In this document: in pieces, positions 8,284 to 48,989 of the stretch
Position numbering within the stretch: the stretch's first letter is position 1
Layout: each line of letters opens with the position of its first letter
Origin: Paenibacillus sacheonensis
GTDB lineage: Bacteria > Bacillota > Bacilli > Paenibacillales > Paenibacillaceae
NCBI RefSeq assembly: GCF_009909195.1
Contig: NZ_JAAAMU010000006.1
Span: forward strand, 310,001-374,000
Direction of reading: 5' to 3'
Length of the DNA stretch: 64,000 nucleotides
Position numbers and translations under genes: made by a program
Notes under the pieces: model-generated
Seen by the model: only the letters and a program-made list of their open reading frames with translations
Told to the model about the DNA's origin: nothing
The model's database searches: none

Positions 8284-8548
8284 GTCGCCTAAGCGCCTGA
8301 CGTCTGATGCCCCAACGCCTGAGATCTGACGCGTAACGGTTGACGTCTAACGTCTAACTCCTAACCTCCGTCGCCTAGCGCCTGACATCTAAAGTCAAAC
8401 ACCTAACCTCCTTCGCCTAGCGTCAAACACCTAGCATCTATCGCCTAGCGGTGGACGTCTAACTTTAAACACCTAACATCTGTCGCCTTAGCGCCTGATG
8501 TCTGATGCCCCACGCCTGACATCTGATGCCTAGCGCCTGACGTCTAAC
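8284..8548. repeat. Degenerate tandem heptamer array
   Basis: The segment is built of 7-bp units of the type NNCTAAC or GCCTGAC. From 8324 to 8484 I count 23 consecutive units in perfect phase (ATCTGAC, GCGTAAC, GGTTGAC, GTCTAAC and so on), 22 of which end in C. The flanks continue with slips of one or two bases. No open frame of interest crosses it. It touches the first box of the four-box element to its right. Confidence 0.85.
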
Positions 8549-8728
8549 GATTGTCAGCGTCGCTATTTCCCCAAACATACAGCTAAATAAACGCTAACGA
8601 TTATTACAGACGCTAATGGACGTATAAAAGTCGATTTTGACGGTAAAATCTCGAAATAAGCCTCCTGGCAACCATTAGCGATATAAAATAGGCATATGGA
8701 GCCGATTAACGATCCGTGCAATCGTTAG
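8544..8728. repeat. Four-box palindromic intergenic element, copy 1
   Basis: Four 23-bp boxes start at 8544, 8594, 8656 and 8706 (spacings 50, 62, 50). The first two read CTAACGATT...CGCTAW on the plus strand; the last two are the same type on the minus strand. Each box is itself an imperfect dyad (YTAACGA, 9 variable bases, then a CGTTAK-like half). The element at 48378-48562 has the same box type and identical spacing. Confidence 0.8.
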
Positions 8729-20758: not shown

Positions 20759-21169
20759 TTGAATGCAAAGGAAGCATCGATATTGCTTGGCGTTCATTAC
20801 AAAACCATCCTTAACATGATCAACGACGGCCGGCTGGCAGCGGTGAAGAACGATTCCGGGGATTGGGACATCAGCGAGAGCGATCTTGCCGCCAGGGAGC
20901 AGCAGATCGAGGATAAAGAATTTTCCGCCATTTACACGCATATGGCAGTACAATTAATCGAGAAGGAGCACGGCCGTGCCGTGAACGCGGCCCGGGAGGA
21001 TTTGCTTCATATTGCCCGATCGATGGTCAAGAACGCCGAACAGCCGCTTGCGTTCAACCAGCACGTCAGTCGTCTGGCCAAAGCGCTCGATACCTACAAG
21101 GCAGCAGAAGCCTTTAACTATACGGTTGAATCGATTCGCAAAAAATGGGACGCTGAAGGTAATCGTTAA
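20759..21169 (+). CDS. Small helix-turn-helix protein of the excisionase/MerR-like HTH_17 type
   Basis: The product is 136 residues starting at TTG 20759, preceded by AAGGGGCGAGG. The only nearby ATG is out of frame. Residues 1-46 form a winged-helix of the HTH_17 type: MNAKEASILLGVHYKTILNM is the helix-turn-helix and INDGRLAAVKNDSGDWDISESDL the wing and closing helix. The rest is a predicted helical region with coiled-coil character (EQQIEDKEFSAIYTHMAVQL, then LARALDTYK-like heptads). It probably binds DNA as a dimer. It lies 74 nt upstream of a dnaA gene on the same strand, so it may regulate or assist that DnaA. Confidence 0.75.
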   Translation: MNAKEASILLGVHYKTILNMINDGRLAAVKNDSGDWDISESDLAAREQQIEDKEFSAIYTHMAVQLIEKEHGRAVNAAREDLLHIARSMVKNAEQPLAFNQHVSRLAKALDTYKAAEAFNYTVESIRKKWDAEGNR

Positions 21170-21243: not shown

Positions 21244-22632
21244 ATGAAAGTGGCGGTTCCGATCGAAGAATTGTGGCAGCAGGTATTGGATCAGATGAAG
21301 GCAAAAATAAGCAAGCCGAGCTTTGACACTTGGCTGTACGCATCCAAGGCGGTCGTCTTCAACGACTCGCAGCTGGTTGTAAGCGCACCCACGCAATTTG
21401 CCCAGGAGTGGTTAGAGAACCGTTATGTGAAGTTAATTCAGTCGACCGTATACGATTGTTTCCATTATCATGTCGAGGTCACCATTACGATGGAGAAAGA
21501 GACCATGCCGCCGCAGGCCGCCGCAGAGCATTCGCCCTTGCAAACGTCGCTTCCATCCCCGGCATCGGAGCCATTGTCCGTTGATCACGACCAGCTGTCT
21601 GGCATGACGCTGAACCGGAAGTACACCTTCGATACATTCGTCGTGGGCGCAGGCAATCGGTTTGCCCACGCAGCCGCGGTTGCCGTTGCAGAATCGCCGG
21701 GTAAGGCGTATAATCCACTTTTCCTGTACGGAGGGGTTGGTTTGGGCAAGACCCATCTCATGCATGCGATCGGGCACTACGTTCTGGAACATAAGCCGAA
21801 TGCCAAGGTACTCTATCTAACGTCAGAGAAGTTCACCAATGAATTCATCCAAGCCATCATGACTAACCGGGGACAAGCCTTCAGGAATAAATACCGCAGC
21901 ATTGACGTCCTGCTCATTGACGACATTCAATTTATCGCCGGCAAGGAACAGACCCAAGAGGAGTTTTTTCACACGTTTAACACACTTCAAGAAGCCAGCA
22001 AAGCCATCATCATCTCCAGCGACAGGAAGCCCAAAGAGATACCGACGCTCGAGGATCGTCTGCGTTCCCGATTTGAATGGGGACTGATTACGGATATTCA
22101 ACCTCCGGACCTCGAGACGCGAATCGCCATCTTACGCAAGAAATCGAAGGCGGAGAAGCTCGATATTCCCGACGAAGTGATGGCCTATATCGCCAGCCAT
22201 ATTCGGACCAACGTGCGCGAGCTGGAAGGCGCGCTCATTCGGGTCGTCGCTTATTCCTCGCTCATTAATCAGGATTACAGCGTTCAATACGCCGCGGAGG
22301 CGTTAAAGAACATCATTCCCTCCGACTCCCCTCGCGCCGTTACCATTCCCGTCATTCAACGCTGCGTCGCGCAAAGCTATGGCCTGCAAACCGATGATCT
22401 GCAAGGGCGCAAACGAACCAAGGCGATCGCTTTCCCGCGGCAGGTAGCCATGTATCTCGCAAGAGAGCTCACCGACCACTCGCTTCCGCAGATCGGCGAA
22501 GCCTTCGGAGGACGCGACCATACGACGATCATTCATGCGCACAAGAAGATTATAAAGAACATGAAACAGGATCAGGAGTTGGCCGGCTTGGTGGCTTCGT
22601 TGACGGAGAAGATTAATGCCGAGCTTGCTTGA
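21244..22632 (+). CDS. dnaA: Chromosomal replication initiator DnaA, orphan copy outside a dnaN context
   Basis: The 462-residue product is a complete DnaA: domain I ([26 protein letters not shown]), a variable linker (about 80-115), the AAA+ domain with Walker [10 protein letters not shown] and Walker [22 protein letters not shown], sensor [21 protein letters not shown], and domain IV with the DnaA-box-binding signature [16 protein letters not shown]. All catalytic and DNA-binding blocks are intact. AAGGAG is 4 nt before ATG 21244. Unlike the usual origin locus, dnaN, recF, gyrB and rpmH are absent; the neighbours are an HTH gene and repeats. It is therefore either a second dnaA or a relocated one. 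I see no TTATNCACA clusters nearby. Confidence 0.93.
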
Positions 22633-22692: not shown

Positions 22693-22820
22693 CCTCGTTG
22701 GGATTCGGTACGCGAACGTTACGTTCACCAAACCTTTCGCACTAGCGAGCGCCAGAAACTGCCCCCCTCTGAGTCCTTTCCCTATCCTGCACGACACCTA
22801 GCTCATAATTGCGCGAGTCA

Positions 22821-23002
22821 TAAGTGCATATCTGCAACTAATTGGCTGGAATTTCCCATCCCAAAGCGAAATAAGTGCATATGTGCAACTATTTCATGCG
22901 AATTGCCCTTTATCAGAGCCATCTCACGTAATTAGTTGCATATTTGCACTTAGTTTTCTCATATCGAGATTTCCACCGGGAATAGTTGCATAATTGCACT
23001 TA
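22821..23002. repeat. Four-box palindromic intergenic element, copy 2 (different box sequence)
   Basis: Four 20-bp boxes start at 22821, 22872, 22933 and 22983 (spacings 51, 61, 50). Boxes 1 and 2 read TAAGTGCATATNTGCAACTA on the plus strand; boxes 3 and 4 read the same on the minus strand. Each box has partial internal symmetry (TGCAWAT...TGCA). Order, orientation and spacing equal those of the elements at 8544 and 48378, although the box sequence is unrelated. No gene covers the region 22693-23116. Confidence 0.85.
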
Positions 23003-23116
23003 ATCCATACACACGATTAAACATCCTAACCCGCCGCAGCCTGCAGCAGCTGCACGCCATAGCGCGTGCCTCGCCCCTGCCCTGCTTCCGCGTAGTTGTT
23101 GGAATCCCGTCCTTCC

Positions 23117-28831: not shown

Positions 28832-28945
28832 AAAAACAGAAAGAGGCAAGGGATATGCTCCCTTACCTCTGCCCAGGCGTACGGCCGTATAAACGATGTG
28901 CTCCCCCGCGGTTCGCCGCGTTACGCCAGTCACACTCGCTTGTGA
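28832..28945 (-). promoter_or_regulatory. ZTP (pfl) riboswitch with transcription terminator, controlling folD
   Basis: On the minus strand the three conserved blocks of the pfl motif occur in order: GTGACTGGCG (28933-28924), CCGCGGGGGAGCA (28911-28899) and CGCCTGGGCA (28879-28870), with a GCGG-CGAA-CCGC hairpin between the first two. Directly after them AGAGGTAAGGGA and TCCCTTGCCTCT form a terminator stem with TTTCTGTTTTT. Known ZTP riboswitches act as ON switches for one-carbon genes, folD included; here ligand binding should stabilise the last block and block the terminator. The folD start lies 34 nt further downstream. Confidence 0.92.
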
Positions 28946-33779: not shown

Positions 33780-36548
33780 CTATTCGCTGCCGCATCCGCC
33801 GATGCGGACCGTGGCAAGGCCGAATTTCGGCAACTCCAGCCGTACCTTGCAGCCTTGATTCGGAAGCTTGGCAGGAGCCAGATCCGCCTTGTGCCTGCCG
33901 TCCAATTCGACCAGCGCGACAGAGGCCGGTTCGGCGCCGATCGTCAACGCGAAGTTTCTTGGCGCATCGCTCGCGTTGAACAGCCGCACCAGCAGATCCC
34001 GGCCGTCACGCTGGATCGAGGTCATCAGGACGGCCTCGTCCTCTACCCGAAGCAGCGAAGGCCATCCGGCTGCGGCCGAGAGCTGCGCGAGTATCGGAAG
34101 CAGCGGCTCCTGCCAGCGCATGCAAGCCTGCGGAACGCCTGCTTGATCCCAGCGGCCGCCATGCGGCAGGATGGAATAACGCGTTTCTTGCACGCCCTTC
34201 AGCGGGCATTTGCCCCACCAGAAGCCGCCTTCGCCGCTCCACCCGAGCGTCAATGCCAAGCCGTCTTCCCGCGAATGCGAGTATCCGGTCGTATGATCGG
34301 AGAACAAAGCGAACCCGCAGTTCTGCTCCTCGTCGTACGCGTCGATCCAATCCAGGATGTTGTTGTGCTTGATCTCGTCCCAGCGCTGAAAATACGTATC
34401 CGCATGCCGGCTCTCCGTCACGTCGAAGGCAGAATGCTTGAACAGGCGGGGATTGCTGCCAAGCGCCGCCTGAAACCGCGCCTGCAGCTTATACCGGGCA
34501 TCGTGATGCGATTTGCGCCGCTCCGTCAGCCGATTGGCCGGCTCGATGTCCCACGGGTCGCCGATCCAGGTCTCCTCCGCGAAGACGAAGCGCGCTTCGA
34601 AGTCCAGCCGCGGCTCTCCGGCGGCGACGGTCAGCACGGTAACGAATTCCGCGTCGGCGAATCGGCCCTTGATCTCGACCTTCGCCCGAAGCGGCCCGTT
34701 CTCGATGATCGTGACGACAGCCGGCGATTCGGTGCTGCTCGCCATCCGCCCCAGCTTGACCGCGTAGCCGGTGTATTCGTTCAACGGCGTTTCCGAGCCT
34801 GCATGGCAAAACGACCGCTGCAGCGTTTTATCGAAAAGCTCGGTGATGACGCCGCCCCTCGAAGCATCGATGCAAATATCGTACAGGTCCGTCGAGATAC
34901 GCGTATATCGTCCGTCGTCCGTTACCTGCGCCTCGGCAGCGGATGCCCATTCTCCTTCGCGATCCGAAGGCGCGATGGAATAATAGCTCGAGCCCGTCGC
35001 TGGTACCTCGGCTTCGAACAGCAGCTCGCCTGCATTCACGCTGCCGTCGCCGCGATAGGTTCGCGTCGGCACGAGCTGGCTCGGAATCTCTCGTCCCGCC
35101 GAATCCTTCACCCGCATCGATCTCGTGCCTGCCGGCGTCGCGATCGCGATGGCCGTCAGCTCCGTCCGCGGCCGACCGAACGTGTTGAACACCTGCACGC
35201 CATAATCTGCTTCGAACACGCCGCCTGCACTTGCGCTTGCTCTTGCACTTGCGCTTGCTCTTGCACTTGCGCTTGCTCTTGCGCTTGTACCCGCATCCGC
35301 ACTGCCGCTTACACTAGCGCCTGCACTTATTCCTGTACTTGTTCCTCCGCCTACACCTGTACCGCCATTCGCACCTGCGCTTACAGCTGCCCATTCACCC
35401 GCACCTGCCCCCACGTATGCACTCGTTCCGTCATCTACGACCGCACCCGCCGCGGAACGGAGGCTGTCCAAGGCGCCGACGCGGATCTCCTCGCAGAGCT
35501 GTTCCGCCATCCAAGTCTGAGCCCCCGCCTGCCAAGCCCATTTACCCCGGCCTTCCTTCGTCGTGGCGCATATCCAGGCGTCGTGATGCTGCGCGAGCAG
35601 CAGCTGATCCCACGCATCCTGGAGCTTCGCCGCCGGATAGGCGTACGAGGTCAGCACGCTCGCGAGCGCCGCGAGCTTCTCCGTCTGGAGCACCGCGTTC
35701 TCCGCGGCCCTGACCTCCCGAGCCATGCGCTGCAGCGTGCCTTCGCCCCACGGCAGCGTACAGCGGACGTCTTCTTGGGTAAACCGCCACTCCTGCTCCG
35801 GACGGGCAGCGATCTCCTCCACATATTCGCGCCAAGTGACATAGTGAACGGCGTCTCCGTCAAGCCACGGCTTCGATTGCCAGCCCAGGTCCTGCAGAAA
35901 GCTGCCTGCCGGATGCGCGATGCCGTTCGCGATGCATTTCCGCACGAATTCCGGCTTCATGTAACCCGCCTCGCTCTCCCAGCAGTTCACCAGCTCCTCG
36001 CACGCATAACGCGGCACGCACGGAATCGACGTGCCGTCCGGCCCGACCCACCATACCGTCTCCGCGTCGATGCCCGACGGATACCCGCCCCAGCCGGTGC
36101 CCGGATTCTTCAGCACGGCGCGCTTATAGCCCAGCGACCTCAGAATCTGCGGCAGGCTGCTCGTCCAGCACGGCTCCTGCGTGGCATACGTATCCACGAG
36201 CAAGCCGGGAAAATGCGCCTCGAGGAGTTGCCGTCCGCGGATCAAATGACGAATATTGCTCTCGCCGCCGATGACCCAGCCGAACGGCTGGGCATAGCTC
36301 CCCGCCAGCATTTCCATTCTGCCGCCTTCATCGTCCCCCAGGCGAGCCTTGACCGCGGCATAAGACTTCGGATCCGTGCGCCGCAGCGCCTCCCAGGAAA
36401 TCGGCTCGATATCCAAGCTCAGCTTCCATTGCGGATTCCGCTCCATCTGCCGAAGAACGTCCGCCCAGGAGCCCAGCGGCATATGGCCCTTGATTCCTCC
36501 GTGATACCCGTCCACGAAATACGCCTTCCCCACTTCTCCGTCCCCCAT
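33780..36548 (-). CDS. GH38-like glycoside hydrolase (alpha-mannosidase-related) with an Ala/Ser/Gly-rich insert
   Basis: The 922-residue product has the start AYFVDGYHGGIKGHMPLGSW and GRMEMLAGSYAQPFGWVIGGESN of GH38-related glycosidases, a central QLLLAQHHDAWIC and C-terminal beta-sandwich blocks (FDFEARFVFAEETWIGDPWDIEP, YSILPHG). Enzymes of this type release alpha-mannose or related sugars. Between the catalytic part and the sandwich (residues about 370-443) is a low-complexity run (SARASASARASASARASASA and Gly/Ser/Thr-rich flanks) encoded by 6-bp microsatellite units, absent from the family. No signal peptide, so it acts in the cytoplasm on imported oligosaccharide. The ATG has no clear ribosome binding site; GTG 36533 is a possible alternative. 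Confidence 0.78.
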   Translation of the reverse strand: MGDGEVGKAYFVDGYHGGIKGHMPLGSWADVLRQMERNPQWKLSLDIEPISWEALRRTDPKSYAAVKARLGDDEGGRMEMLAGSYAQPFGWVIGGESNIRHLIRGRQLLEAHFPGLLVDTYATQEPCWTSSLPQILRSLGYKRAVLKNPGTGWGGYPSGIDAETVWWVGPDGTSIPCVPRYACEELVNCWESEAGYMKPEFVRKCIANGIAHPAGSFLQDLGWQSKPWLDGDAVHYVTWREYVEEIAARPEQEWRFTQEDVRCTLPWGEGTLQRMAREVRAAENAVLQTEKLAALASVLTSYAYPAAKLQDAWDQLLLAQHHDAWICATTKEGRGKWAWQAGAQTWMAEQLCEEIRVGALDSLRSAAGAVVDDGTSAYVGAGAGEWAAVSAGANGGTGVGGGTSTGISAGASVSGSADAGTSARASASARASASARASASAGGVFEADYGVQVFNTFGRPRTELTAIAIATPAGTRSMRVKDSAGREIPSQLVPTRTYRGDGSVNAGELLFEAEVPATGSSYYSIAPSDREGEWASAAEAQVTDDGRYTRISTDLYDICIDASRGGVITELFDKTLQRSFCHAGSETPLNEYTGYAVKLGRMASSTESPAVVTIIENGPLRAKVEIKGRFADAEFVTVLTVAAGEPRLDFEARFVFAEETWIGDPWDIEPANRLTERRKSHHDARYKLQARFQAALGSNPRLFKHSAFDVTESRHADTYFQRWDEIKHNNILDWIDAYDEEQNCGFALFSDHTTGYSHSREDGLALTLGWSGEGGFWWGKCPLKGVQETRYSILPHGGRWDQAGVPQACMRWQEPLLPILAQLSAAAGWPSLLRVEDEAVLMTSIQRDGRDLLVRLFNASDAPRNFALTIGAEPASVALVELDGRHKADLAPAKLPNQGCKVRLELPKFGLATVRIGGCGSE
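35220..35445. repeat. In-frame hexanucleotide microsatellite inside the GH38-like gene
   Basis: From 35225 to 35290 the plus strand repeats CTTGCN units, with an 18-bp super-unit (CTTGCTCTTGCACTTGCG) present about three times. To the right, related but decayed six-base units (CACCTG, CCTGTA, TTCCTC) continue to about 35445. All are in frame and encode Ala-Ser, Ala-Arg and Ala-Gly pairs. Confidence 0.85.
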
Positions 36549-43411: not shown

Positions 43412-43469
43412 CTTCTACTTCTACTTCTACTTCTACTTCTACTTCTACTTCTACTTCTACTTCTACTTC
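43412..43469. repeat. Pure hexanucleotide microsatellite
   Basis: CTTCTA is repeated almost ten times without a mismatch. It lies 5 nt beyond the stop codon of the PhyH-family gene at 43475, thus in its 3' untranslated region, and about 250 nt upstream of the TIR-like gene start on the same strand. Confidence 0.95.
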
Positions 43470-48377: not shown

Positions 48378-48562
48378 CTAACGAGTCTAGCAATCGTTAT
48401 TTGGCTCGTTTGAGGTCTTTTGGAATTCTAACGATTTTAGGAGACGTTATTGGAGCCAAAACAGACCGAAACTTGCGATATGGAGACAAATAACGATTGC
48501 AGCACTCGTTAGAATTTCAAACCTTCGTTTTTATGCCCAATAAGGCTGCTGATGCTCGTTAG
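48378..48562. repeat. Four-box palindromic intergenic element, copy 3
   Basis: Four 23-bp boxes start at 48378, 48428, 48490 and 48540 (spacings 50, 62, 50, identical to copy 1). Boxes 1 and 2 read CTAACGAG/T...CGTTAT on the plus strand; boxes 3 and 4 read the same on the minus strand. The stretches adjoining boxes also agree when outer units are compared on opposite strands (TTGGC after box 1, TTTGRAATT before box 2). The segment 48117-48377, towards the operon, has no recognised feature. Confidence 0.85.
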
Positions 48563-48599: not shown

Positions 48600-48989
48600 C
48601 ATTCGCGTTCCGGCGTTCGCATCCCCGGCTACCGCCATGCCCCTTAGCGCTCCATCCGTTCGCCATCCAGCGGTCCCAGCCTCGGTTACCGCCTCTGGCT
48701 GCATTGCGCATCAAAAGTTCGTTGTCCCGTATTCGCAGTCCCGGCCGCATCTGGCCTGCAGAGCGCATTATCCGTTCGCTCTCCTGCATTCCCAGCCCCG
48801 GCTACCGCCCCCCGGCCTCATCGCACATCAGCGGTTCGCCCTCCTGCATTCCCAGCCCCGGCTACCGCCGCCGGCCCGCATCGCACATCAGCGGTTCGCC
48901 ATCCAGCGATCGCAGCCTCGGCTACCGCCCCCTGGCCTGCATCGCACATCATCGGTTCGCTCTCCGGCAATCGCAGACCCGGCAAGCCC
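48600..48989. repeat. Tandem 57-60 bp minisatellite, about seven units
   Basis: Units start with GTTCG at 48658, 48717, 48774, 48834, 48894 and 48954, with a poorer unit at 48600. Each has GTTCGCYMTCCWGC, then CAGCCYCGGCTACCGCC, and ends CATCGCACATCA or a variant. The last three periods are exactly 60 bp. On the plus strand a frame with 20-residue repeats crosses it, but this frame continues antisense through the response regulator gene and has no ribosome binding site, so I treat it as non-coding. Confidence 0.85.

Follow-up and report, generated by a model that had tools for sequence, protein, structure and literature searches.

Among the systems closest to the one reported here is REPIN-RAYT, a repeat family that travels with an enzyme gene. 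REPIN-RAYT repeats are described as short, palindromic in type and dispersed between genes, present as several types per genome, found in tandem clusters, adjacent to a gene for their own enzyme and co-evolving with that enzyme (PMC3116915). The ends of REP sequences are defined, in a second report, by a GTAG tag (PMC3733652). Here we describe dispersed intergenic repeats of a different build, represented in a 64,000-nucleotide stretch of the Paenibacillus sacheonensis genome (referred to here as the window). Our data suggest that these repeats form one half of a DNA-wrapping and perhaps also DNA-spreading system of two parts, which has not been described before. Genomes and loci are labelled below with G and L numbers, respectively, G000 being the source genome.

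The window contains two type-1 four-box elements. The first, at 48378..48562, has boxes at 48378-48400 (+), 48428-48450 (+), 48490-48512 (-) and 48540-48562 (-). The other, at 8544..8728, has boxes at 8544-8566 (+), 8594-8616 (+), 8656-8678 (-) and 8706-8728 (-). All eight box starts agree with those reported by a first-pass annotation of this DNA, as does the 50/62/50 spacing common to both copies, and the geometry recurs at 51 places genome-wide. These were found in the 7.44-Mb source genome, allowing up to three mismatches, with the pattern CTAACG-N44-CTAACG-N73-CGTTAG-N44-CGTTAG (i.e., CTAACG at 0 and 50, CGTTAG at 129 and 179); the reversed control gave 0, and two of the 51 places represent a single five-box copy matched in two overlapping registers (C43:172250/172300). 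The copies of the source genome comprise one asymmetric main subfamily, which occurs in both orientations and includes the 8544 element, together with divergent members such as the 48378 element, which lies outside the main subfamily. Whole elements are also duplicated in tandem, with up to five copies at a pitch of about 280-310 bp, as at C43:266354/266666 in the source genome and at G058:C1:4465038-4466411.

The annotation had named random box spacing across the genome as its counter-case; we found the spacing to be non-random. Among the loci fetched at that stage, 46 source-genome half-elements had no perfect partner at the standard offset, yet a search for partners out to 1.5 kb showed that 41 of them have one with three or fewer mismatches across a 61-63-bp central gap. 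Of the five exceptions, L018, L030, L232 and L233 have four to five mismatches there, and the partner of L237 lies 8 bp further out. Furthermore, the boxes occur mostly in fours and not singly: 30 of 40 loci fetched by a box with at most one mismatch carry a four-box element and 10 a lone match (6 matches were obtained with the reversed box as control). Sequence-agnostic scanning of the entire window detected three elements at a score of 8.5 or higher (8544, 48378 and 22819), and there were 0 four-box matches in a single block-shuffled sequence of 147 kb. Block shuffling served as the scan control because the forward, forward, reverse, reverse layout survives reversal of the window, which is thus unsuitable. 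The box itself, first described as an imperfect dyad, is a dyad only approximately; other genomes carry CTAACG...CTTATT boxes and the box is therefore more aptly regarded as a directional site.

A tandem array had been proposed to adjoin both window copies, and it does. A degenerate array at 8341..8545, with TRF periods of 42, 28 and 21 (multiples of 7), extends into the first box of the 8544 copy, and a 57-60-bp array at 48689..48983 lies some 127 bp past the fourth box of the 48378 copy. The association extends to 36 of 44 source-genome elements (array within 250 bp) but only to 63 of 172 elements of other genomes, and we therefore rejected the array as a defining part of the element. Elsewhere in the window are a perfect CTTCTA hexamer array (43412-43469) and an 18-bp CGCTTG-type array (35222-35287).

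We found the type-1 pattern, with up to two mismatches, in 44 of 117 genomes (the source and its relatives) at 1-101 copies each, with controls of 0 in all; the search of relatives with a spacing model, which the annotation had suggested, thus recovers the geometry well beyond the source. A scan of named genomes yielded at least 113 stretches in Paenibacillus, Cohnella, Saccharibacillus, Fontibacillus, Gorillibacterium and unclassified Paenibacillaceae. The box sequence varies between genomes while the spacing hardly does. We tabulated 216 elements (44 from the source genome, 172 from other genomes), all found via their CTAACG hexamers. Their boxes mostly end in YTATT or YTAAT, and the variable bases in between read RTTG in the source genome and GAAC, AATC, GACG or GCGG elsewhere. 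In G065, 19 of 20 fetched copies are nearly identical over the element and its short flanks, which is a recent burst of spread. Plasmids and phages were rejected as carriers of the elements, which we found in one plasmid record and in no phage.

The A/T content of the elements in other genomes has a period of 10.0-10.25 bp over 185 bp, a pattern that ends at the element edges. When spacer bases alone are considered, the in-phase component at approximately 10.1 bp is positive in 44/44 source-genome and 172/172 other elements (z of 25.6 and 45.5, respectively, with flanks at about 0). Within the source-genome set alone, a 12-bp period outscores 10 bp in the spacers, so that the other genomes are the better guide to the period. 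Strong static curvature was rejected, as bending in a wedge model is predicted to be modest (end-to-end ratio of 0.90-0.92 vs 0.95-0.97 for flanks). The phasing may provide bendability for wrapping, as expected of bent or wrapped DNA.

Clustering of ORFs within 2.5 kb of the elements singled out one unnamed protein family for its closeness to them; the same clustering gave commoner families, at 13, 10 and 10 loci. In the discovery set of nine loci from eight genomes, the distance between gene and element is 0-66 bp in six cases, 126 bp in L196 and 185 bp in the source genome, where the type-1 partner gene (G000:C1:309663-310304) lies between two elements and outside the window. Of the 117 genomes, 91 encode homologues according to a profile search. 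Any homologue is present in 44/44 element genomes vs 47/73 others (Fisher 1.0e-6, shared ancestry uncorrected), and all 26 homologue-free genomes are without pattern elements. A strong homologue (E <= 1e-80, a cut chosen after the scores were known) is present in 36/44 element genomes vs 17/73 others (Fisher 6.9e-10, likewise uncorrected for shared ancestry), and the remaining 8 of the 44 have only weak or partial homologues. We also scanned protein loci for any four mutually similar boxes at about 50/62/50. An element was found at 30/30 protein-ranked loci, 4 of which were already in the discovery set, and 0 in one block shuffle. The scan can match GC-rich repeats: at L280, whose element was found in a shifted register, two such matches outscore the real element. 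Nine of the 30 loci come from genomes for which the CTAACG pattern had given 0, either because CTAACG is not the start of their boxes or because a gap is off by 1 bp.

Combining 26 protein-ranked genes with nine from element-fetched loci gave 35 distinct strong genes. A distance script located an element for 34 of them and missed that of L289, which other scans show; the nearest element is 3' of the gene in 31/34, at a median of 59.5 bp. Gene and box sequences co-vary, with a Mantel r of 0.72 over 41 pairs and a word r of 0.45 among the 35 strong genes. The box set for this test excludes L299 and L308 (whose matches are tandem arrays) as well as L298 and L302 (no element found), and the box words of L280 (register shift) and L289 (one tied base) were set by hand, here and in the residue count that follows. 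Base 6 of the word appears to track residue 185, with R185 in 0/10 proteins where the base is A and 18/25 where it is G (p 1.1e-4). This co-variation is confounded by phylogeny, as columns outside the helix rank as high, E97 being the top one.

Members of the partner family have roughly 216 residues, with a predicted N-terminal Vsr/DUF559-like (EDxHD-type) endonuclease domain and a predicted C-terminal winged helix. The catalytic domain is modelled with an EDxHD/Vsr-like fold (pLDDT 90.6); Foldseek alone gave no strong nuclease match. E60, D72, E85 and H92 are present in 44/44 family sequences and D95 in 43/44, residues which we take to correspond to the EDxHD catalytic-type motif. The DUF559 (PF04480) gathering score is passed by three of six paralogues tested, and two type-1 members, including that of the source genome, have no significant Pfam or NCBIfam match. 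Membership of an anti-phage family was rejected, the only PADLOC match being sub-threshold (HEC-02A, E 0.017).

The source genome encodes four further family members, one of them a fragment. About 400 bp beyond the paralogue on C10 lies an element with boxes of the form AATAAGTGCA-N4-TGCACTTATT, referred to here as type 2. The type-2 box has 122 matches per strand in the source genome, the sites being near-palindromic, and 0 in the control. All 20 of the type-2 sites fetched are four-box elements, 13 with exactly 50/62/50 spacing and seven in which one gap or two gaps deviate by 1, and the A/T phase of 12 exact elements is that of type 1. Judging by adjacency, the C10 paralogue is the putative partner of the type-2 elements. 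One type-2 element lies in the window at 22819..23004, with 24-bp boxes like ATAAGTGCA-N4-TGCAACTA at 22819-22842 (+), 22870-22893 (+), 22931-22954 (-) and 22981-23004 (-) and gaps of 51/62/50, between a DnaA ORF (+) and a membrane-protein-like ORF (-). The DnaA ORF (21244-22632) is a second full-length one, the other strong DnaA match of the genome being at C45:249482-250795, and is preceded by a short helix-turn-helix-like ORF (20759-21169). The window also contains a ZMP/ZTP riboswitch at 28864-28943 (-) (Rfam RF01750, 52.8 bits).

More distant relatives extend the range of boxes. Six of ten weak paralogues (L300 and L303-L307) adjoin four-box elements with other boxes, including TTGTACTTTGTAC- or AGGGAAA-type, at a spacing of 50-51/61-62/50-51, and no four-box element was detected in the loci of L298 and L302. 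Downstream of the paralogue genes in L299 (2200-2490) and L308 (2170-2560) are tandem arrays of 50-51-bp units that are not four-box elements; each unit of the L299 array contains a 24-bp palindrome. Outside the order the family is rare (4/299 genomes of the phylum), with three of these genomes belonging to the same family as the source and the fourth, that of L302, to a different group. L302 (G241, another class) holds a lone family member outside Paenibacillales, a possible case of horizontal transfer. Selection on the geometry, which the annotation had proposed from two diverged copies, is strongly supported: two types within the source genome have unrelated boxes and the same spacing, and the spacing is kept across the order despite changed boxes.

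We examined 239 distinct elements with mechanical ORF calls. The flanking ORFs are convergent for 85 of these, divergent for 30 and co-directional for 87, while seven elements overlap an ORF and 30 are at a locus edge; convergent gene pairs thus exceed divergent ones (p 2.9e-7). After tandem clusters were collapsed (19 to 16 in G070; 31 to 20 in G058, with the copy on a second contig excluded), elements are closer to dnaA than expected in three of six closed genomes, G070, G098 and G058 (P 3e-4, 3e-4 and 0.0075), and show no such bias in G065, G024 (11 of 13 copies used) and G032. Origin-proximal placement was therefore rejected as a general rule. So was terminator-targeting: outward-pointing terminators at 20-40 bp accompany 5/18 G065 copies, 1/46 source-genome elements and 2/138 others. 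In several recent G065 copies (L212-L230), the conserved block stops just before intrinsic-terminator hairpins that differ from one another, and the block ends look as if insertion had occurred at the hairpin base.

At orthologous sites with both flanks matched, boxes (hexamers excluded) are more conserved than spacers in 6/6 pairs (e.g., 0.85 vs 0.67 and 0.79 vs 0.58); the pairs, not all independent, come from P. timonensis strains (counted as separate species in the genome set), P. mellifer and P. rubinfantis. The same holds for 50/51 pairs of a wider list, many of which are not independent or not truly orthologous, the exception being L072-L073. P. oralis is without an element that is present in two P. 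timonensis strains, an untidy case that we rejected as a clean empty site. Neither a target-site duplication nor a clean empty site was found at the copies and the presence/absence case compared.

What holds the geometry in place? The annotation offered two explanations, nested pairing of boxes 1-4 and 2-3, or a multimer bound on one face of the helix. A structured RNA or cruciform DNA, with the spacing kept by the fold, would account for single-sequence RNA folds that beat shuffles (z of -4.42 for 48378 and -2.45 for 8544), for boxes that are imperfect dyads and for type-2 boxes that are near-perfect palindromes. However, the two window copies fold into differing topologies, and there is no Rfam match at elements of 8 loci (E <= 5) or at the elements of the window examined. 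The box words also speak against pairing. When the 172 elements from other genomes are pooled, word similarity is 0.81 (1-2) and 0.79 (3-4) for same-direction boxes and 0.76-0.79 for opposed boxes (0.76 each for 1-4 and 2-3), against 0.42 with elements shuffled. Sharing is thus no higher in the boxes that should pair, and same-direction boxes, which cannot pair, have a word in common that a shared recogniser explains better. In the source genome the box-word signal is weaker and mixed, as expected from its one main subfamily. Furthermore, spacer 1 and the reverse complement of spacer 3 have no complementarity in other genomes (0.403 identical vs 0.400 shuffled) and fall below chance in the source genome (0.431 vs 0.497). 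On word sharing, spacer non-complementarity, differing folds and the Rfam null, we rejected an RNA element and regard pairing as very improbable. The multimer is favoured by one word in all four boxes, the A/T phasing at approximately 10.1 bp and the winged-helix protein encoded adjacent, and the interpretation of the annotation is thus partly supported, in its geometry and protein multimer and not in its nested pairing.

How the elements came to be dispersed admits further readings. Mobilisation of REP/REPIN elements by RAYT, an HUH Y1 transposase, would fit a similar population structure (i.e., dispersed intergenic repeats, tandem clusters and a copy beside the enzyme gene). A Y1 transposase is indeed present in 3/13 element-rich genomes tested (G038, G058 and G100) and in 6/26 genomes searched overall, but Y1_Tnp is absent from G000, G003, G004, G014, G053, G062, G065, G070, G075 and G078, which refutes RAYT mobilisation for ten of the 13 and leaves this reading scarcely credible. 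An ordinary MITE of a DDE-transposase insertion sequence, its boxes being multiple terminal transposase sites, is improbable, even though recent amplification in G065, tandem duplicates, inverted outer ends (CTAACG/CGTTAG) and patchy presence would all be expected of it. The linked gene is unlike a DDE transposase, we saw no target-site duplication, and at orthologous sites boxes are kept while spacers decay. Nor did we find a gene-containing autonomous copy within 1.5 kb of the source-genome half-elements, since these are nearly always partnered at the 61-63-bp gap, although the five exceptions could hide a longer one. Finally, the protein might be a host chromosome-organising or regulatory protein derived from an endonuclease, with the elements as immobile binding sites multiplied by ordinary duplication. 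In situ box conservation, the excess of convergent gene pairs (85 vs 30, p 2.9e-7) and origin-proximal bias in G070, G098 and G058 agree with such a role. We consider it unlikely given the G065 burst of near-identical copies, the lack of origin bias in G065, G024 (11/13 copies) and G032, and the near-invariance of catalytic-type residues, which is unexpected if binding alone were needed.

We therefore favour, at a probability of roughly two in three, a two-part binding, wrapping and spreading system of which the four-box elements would be the DNA half and the nuclease/winged-helix protein the other half. This reading draws on features visible in the sequences, namely geometry, shared words, A/T phasing, gene-element linkage, co-variation, active-site-like residues and slow box change. 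The cognate oligomer probably binds and bends the element, and its nuclease probably assists spread. The winged helices of the oligomer would bind the four directional boxes, and the 50/62/50 spacing together with the 10.1-bp A/T phasing would let 185 bp bend or wrap round it into a compact particle. Cutting or nicking by the nuclease domain may have driven element copying and tandem duplication from a founder beside the gene, and selection may now maintain the copies at gene 3' ends, possibly in the role of local DNA-topology or domain sites. More tentatively, and with some doubt on our part, endonuclease-derived proteins of Paenibacillales might assemble sequence-addressed, nucleosome-like particles, in which 185 bp of A/T-phased DNA with four directional sites would wrap round an oligomer, the words being independently re-programmed in many paralogues while the geometry stays fixed; such particles would be both a selfish replicating unit and selected chromosome-structure sites at gene ends. 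The paralogues, with differing words and one geometry, are a natural experiment on changes of winged-helix specificity. The system would also make it possible to test directly whether sequence-directed particles of wrapped DNA are built in bacteria, and bears on why scattered repeats persist at gene 3' ends.

In the parts of the open-licence literature consulted, we found no description of the four-box element or its partner protein and no link of DUF559 to dispersed repeats. With respect to DUF559/Vsr-like proteins (PF04480), the Pfam gathering cut-off is exceeded by three of the six paralogues examined, and two type-1 members differ in having no significant Pfam or NCBIfam match. What sets the four-box partner apart from EDxHD homing endonucleases (I-Bth0305I) is a chromosomal gene that stands free, a winged helix at the C-terminus and linkage to a four-site element present in many copies. 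Bacterial MITEs and BIMEs are likewise short, gene-free intergenic repeats biased to convergent gene ends, but the four-box elements have an unusual 10.1-bp phasing, no target-duplication signature that we could find and a linked gene unlike a DDE transposase. With REPIN-RAYT the four-box system has in common dispersed intergenic repeats of several types, tandem clusters, co-variation and a repeat copy that adjoins the putative cognate enzyme gene. The enzyme differs, being a Vsr/DUF559-like nuclease with a winged helix here and an HUH Y1 transposase in RAYT. So does the repeat, which has four directional boxes, near base-exact spacing and phased A/T tracts in place of two hairpin-forming REPs. 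Its ends read CTAACG in type 1 (the hexamer used in the search) or AATAAGTGCA in type 2, and not the GTAG tag. If our reading is true, this is a repeat-plus-enzyme system unlike REPIN-RAYT, pairing an enzyme of homing-endonuclease fold with a rigid four-site DNA architecture.
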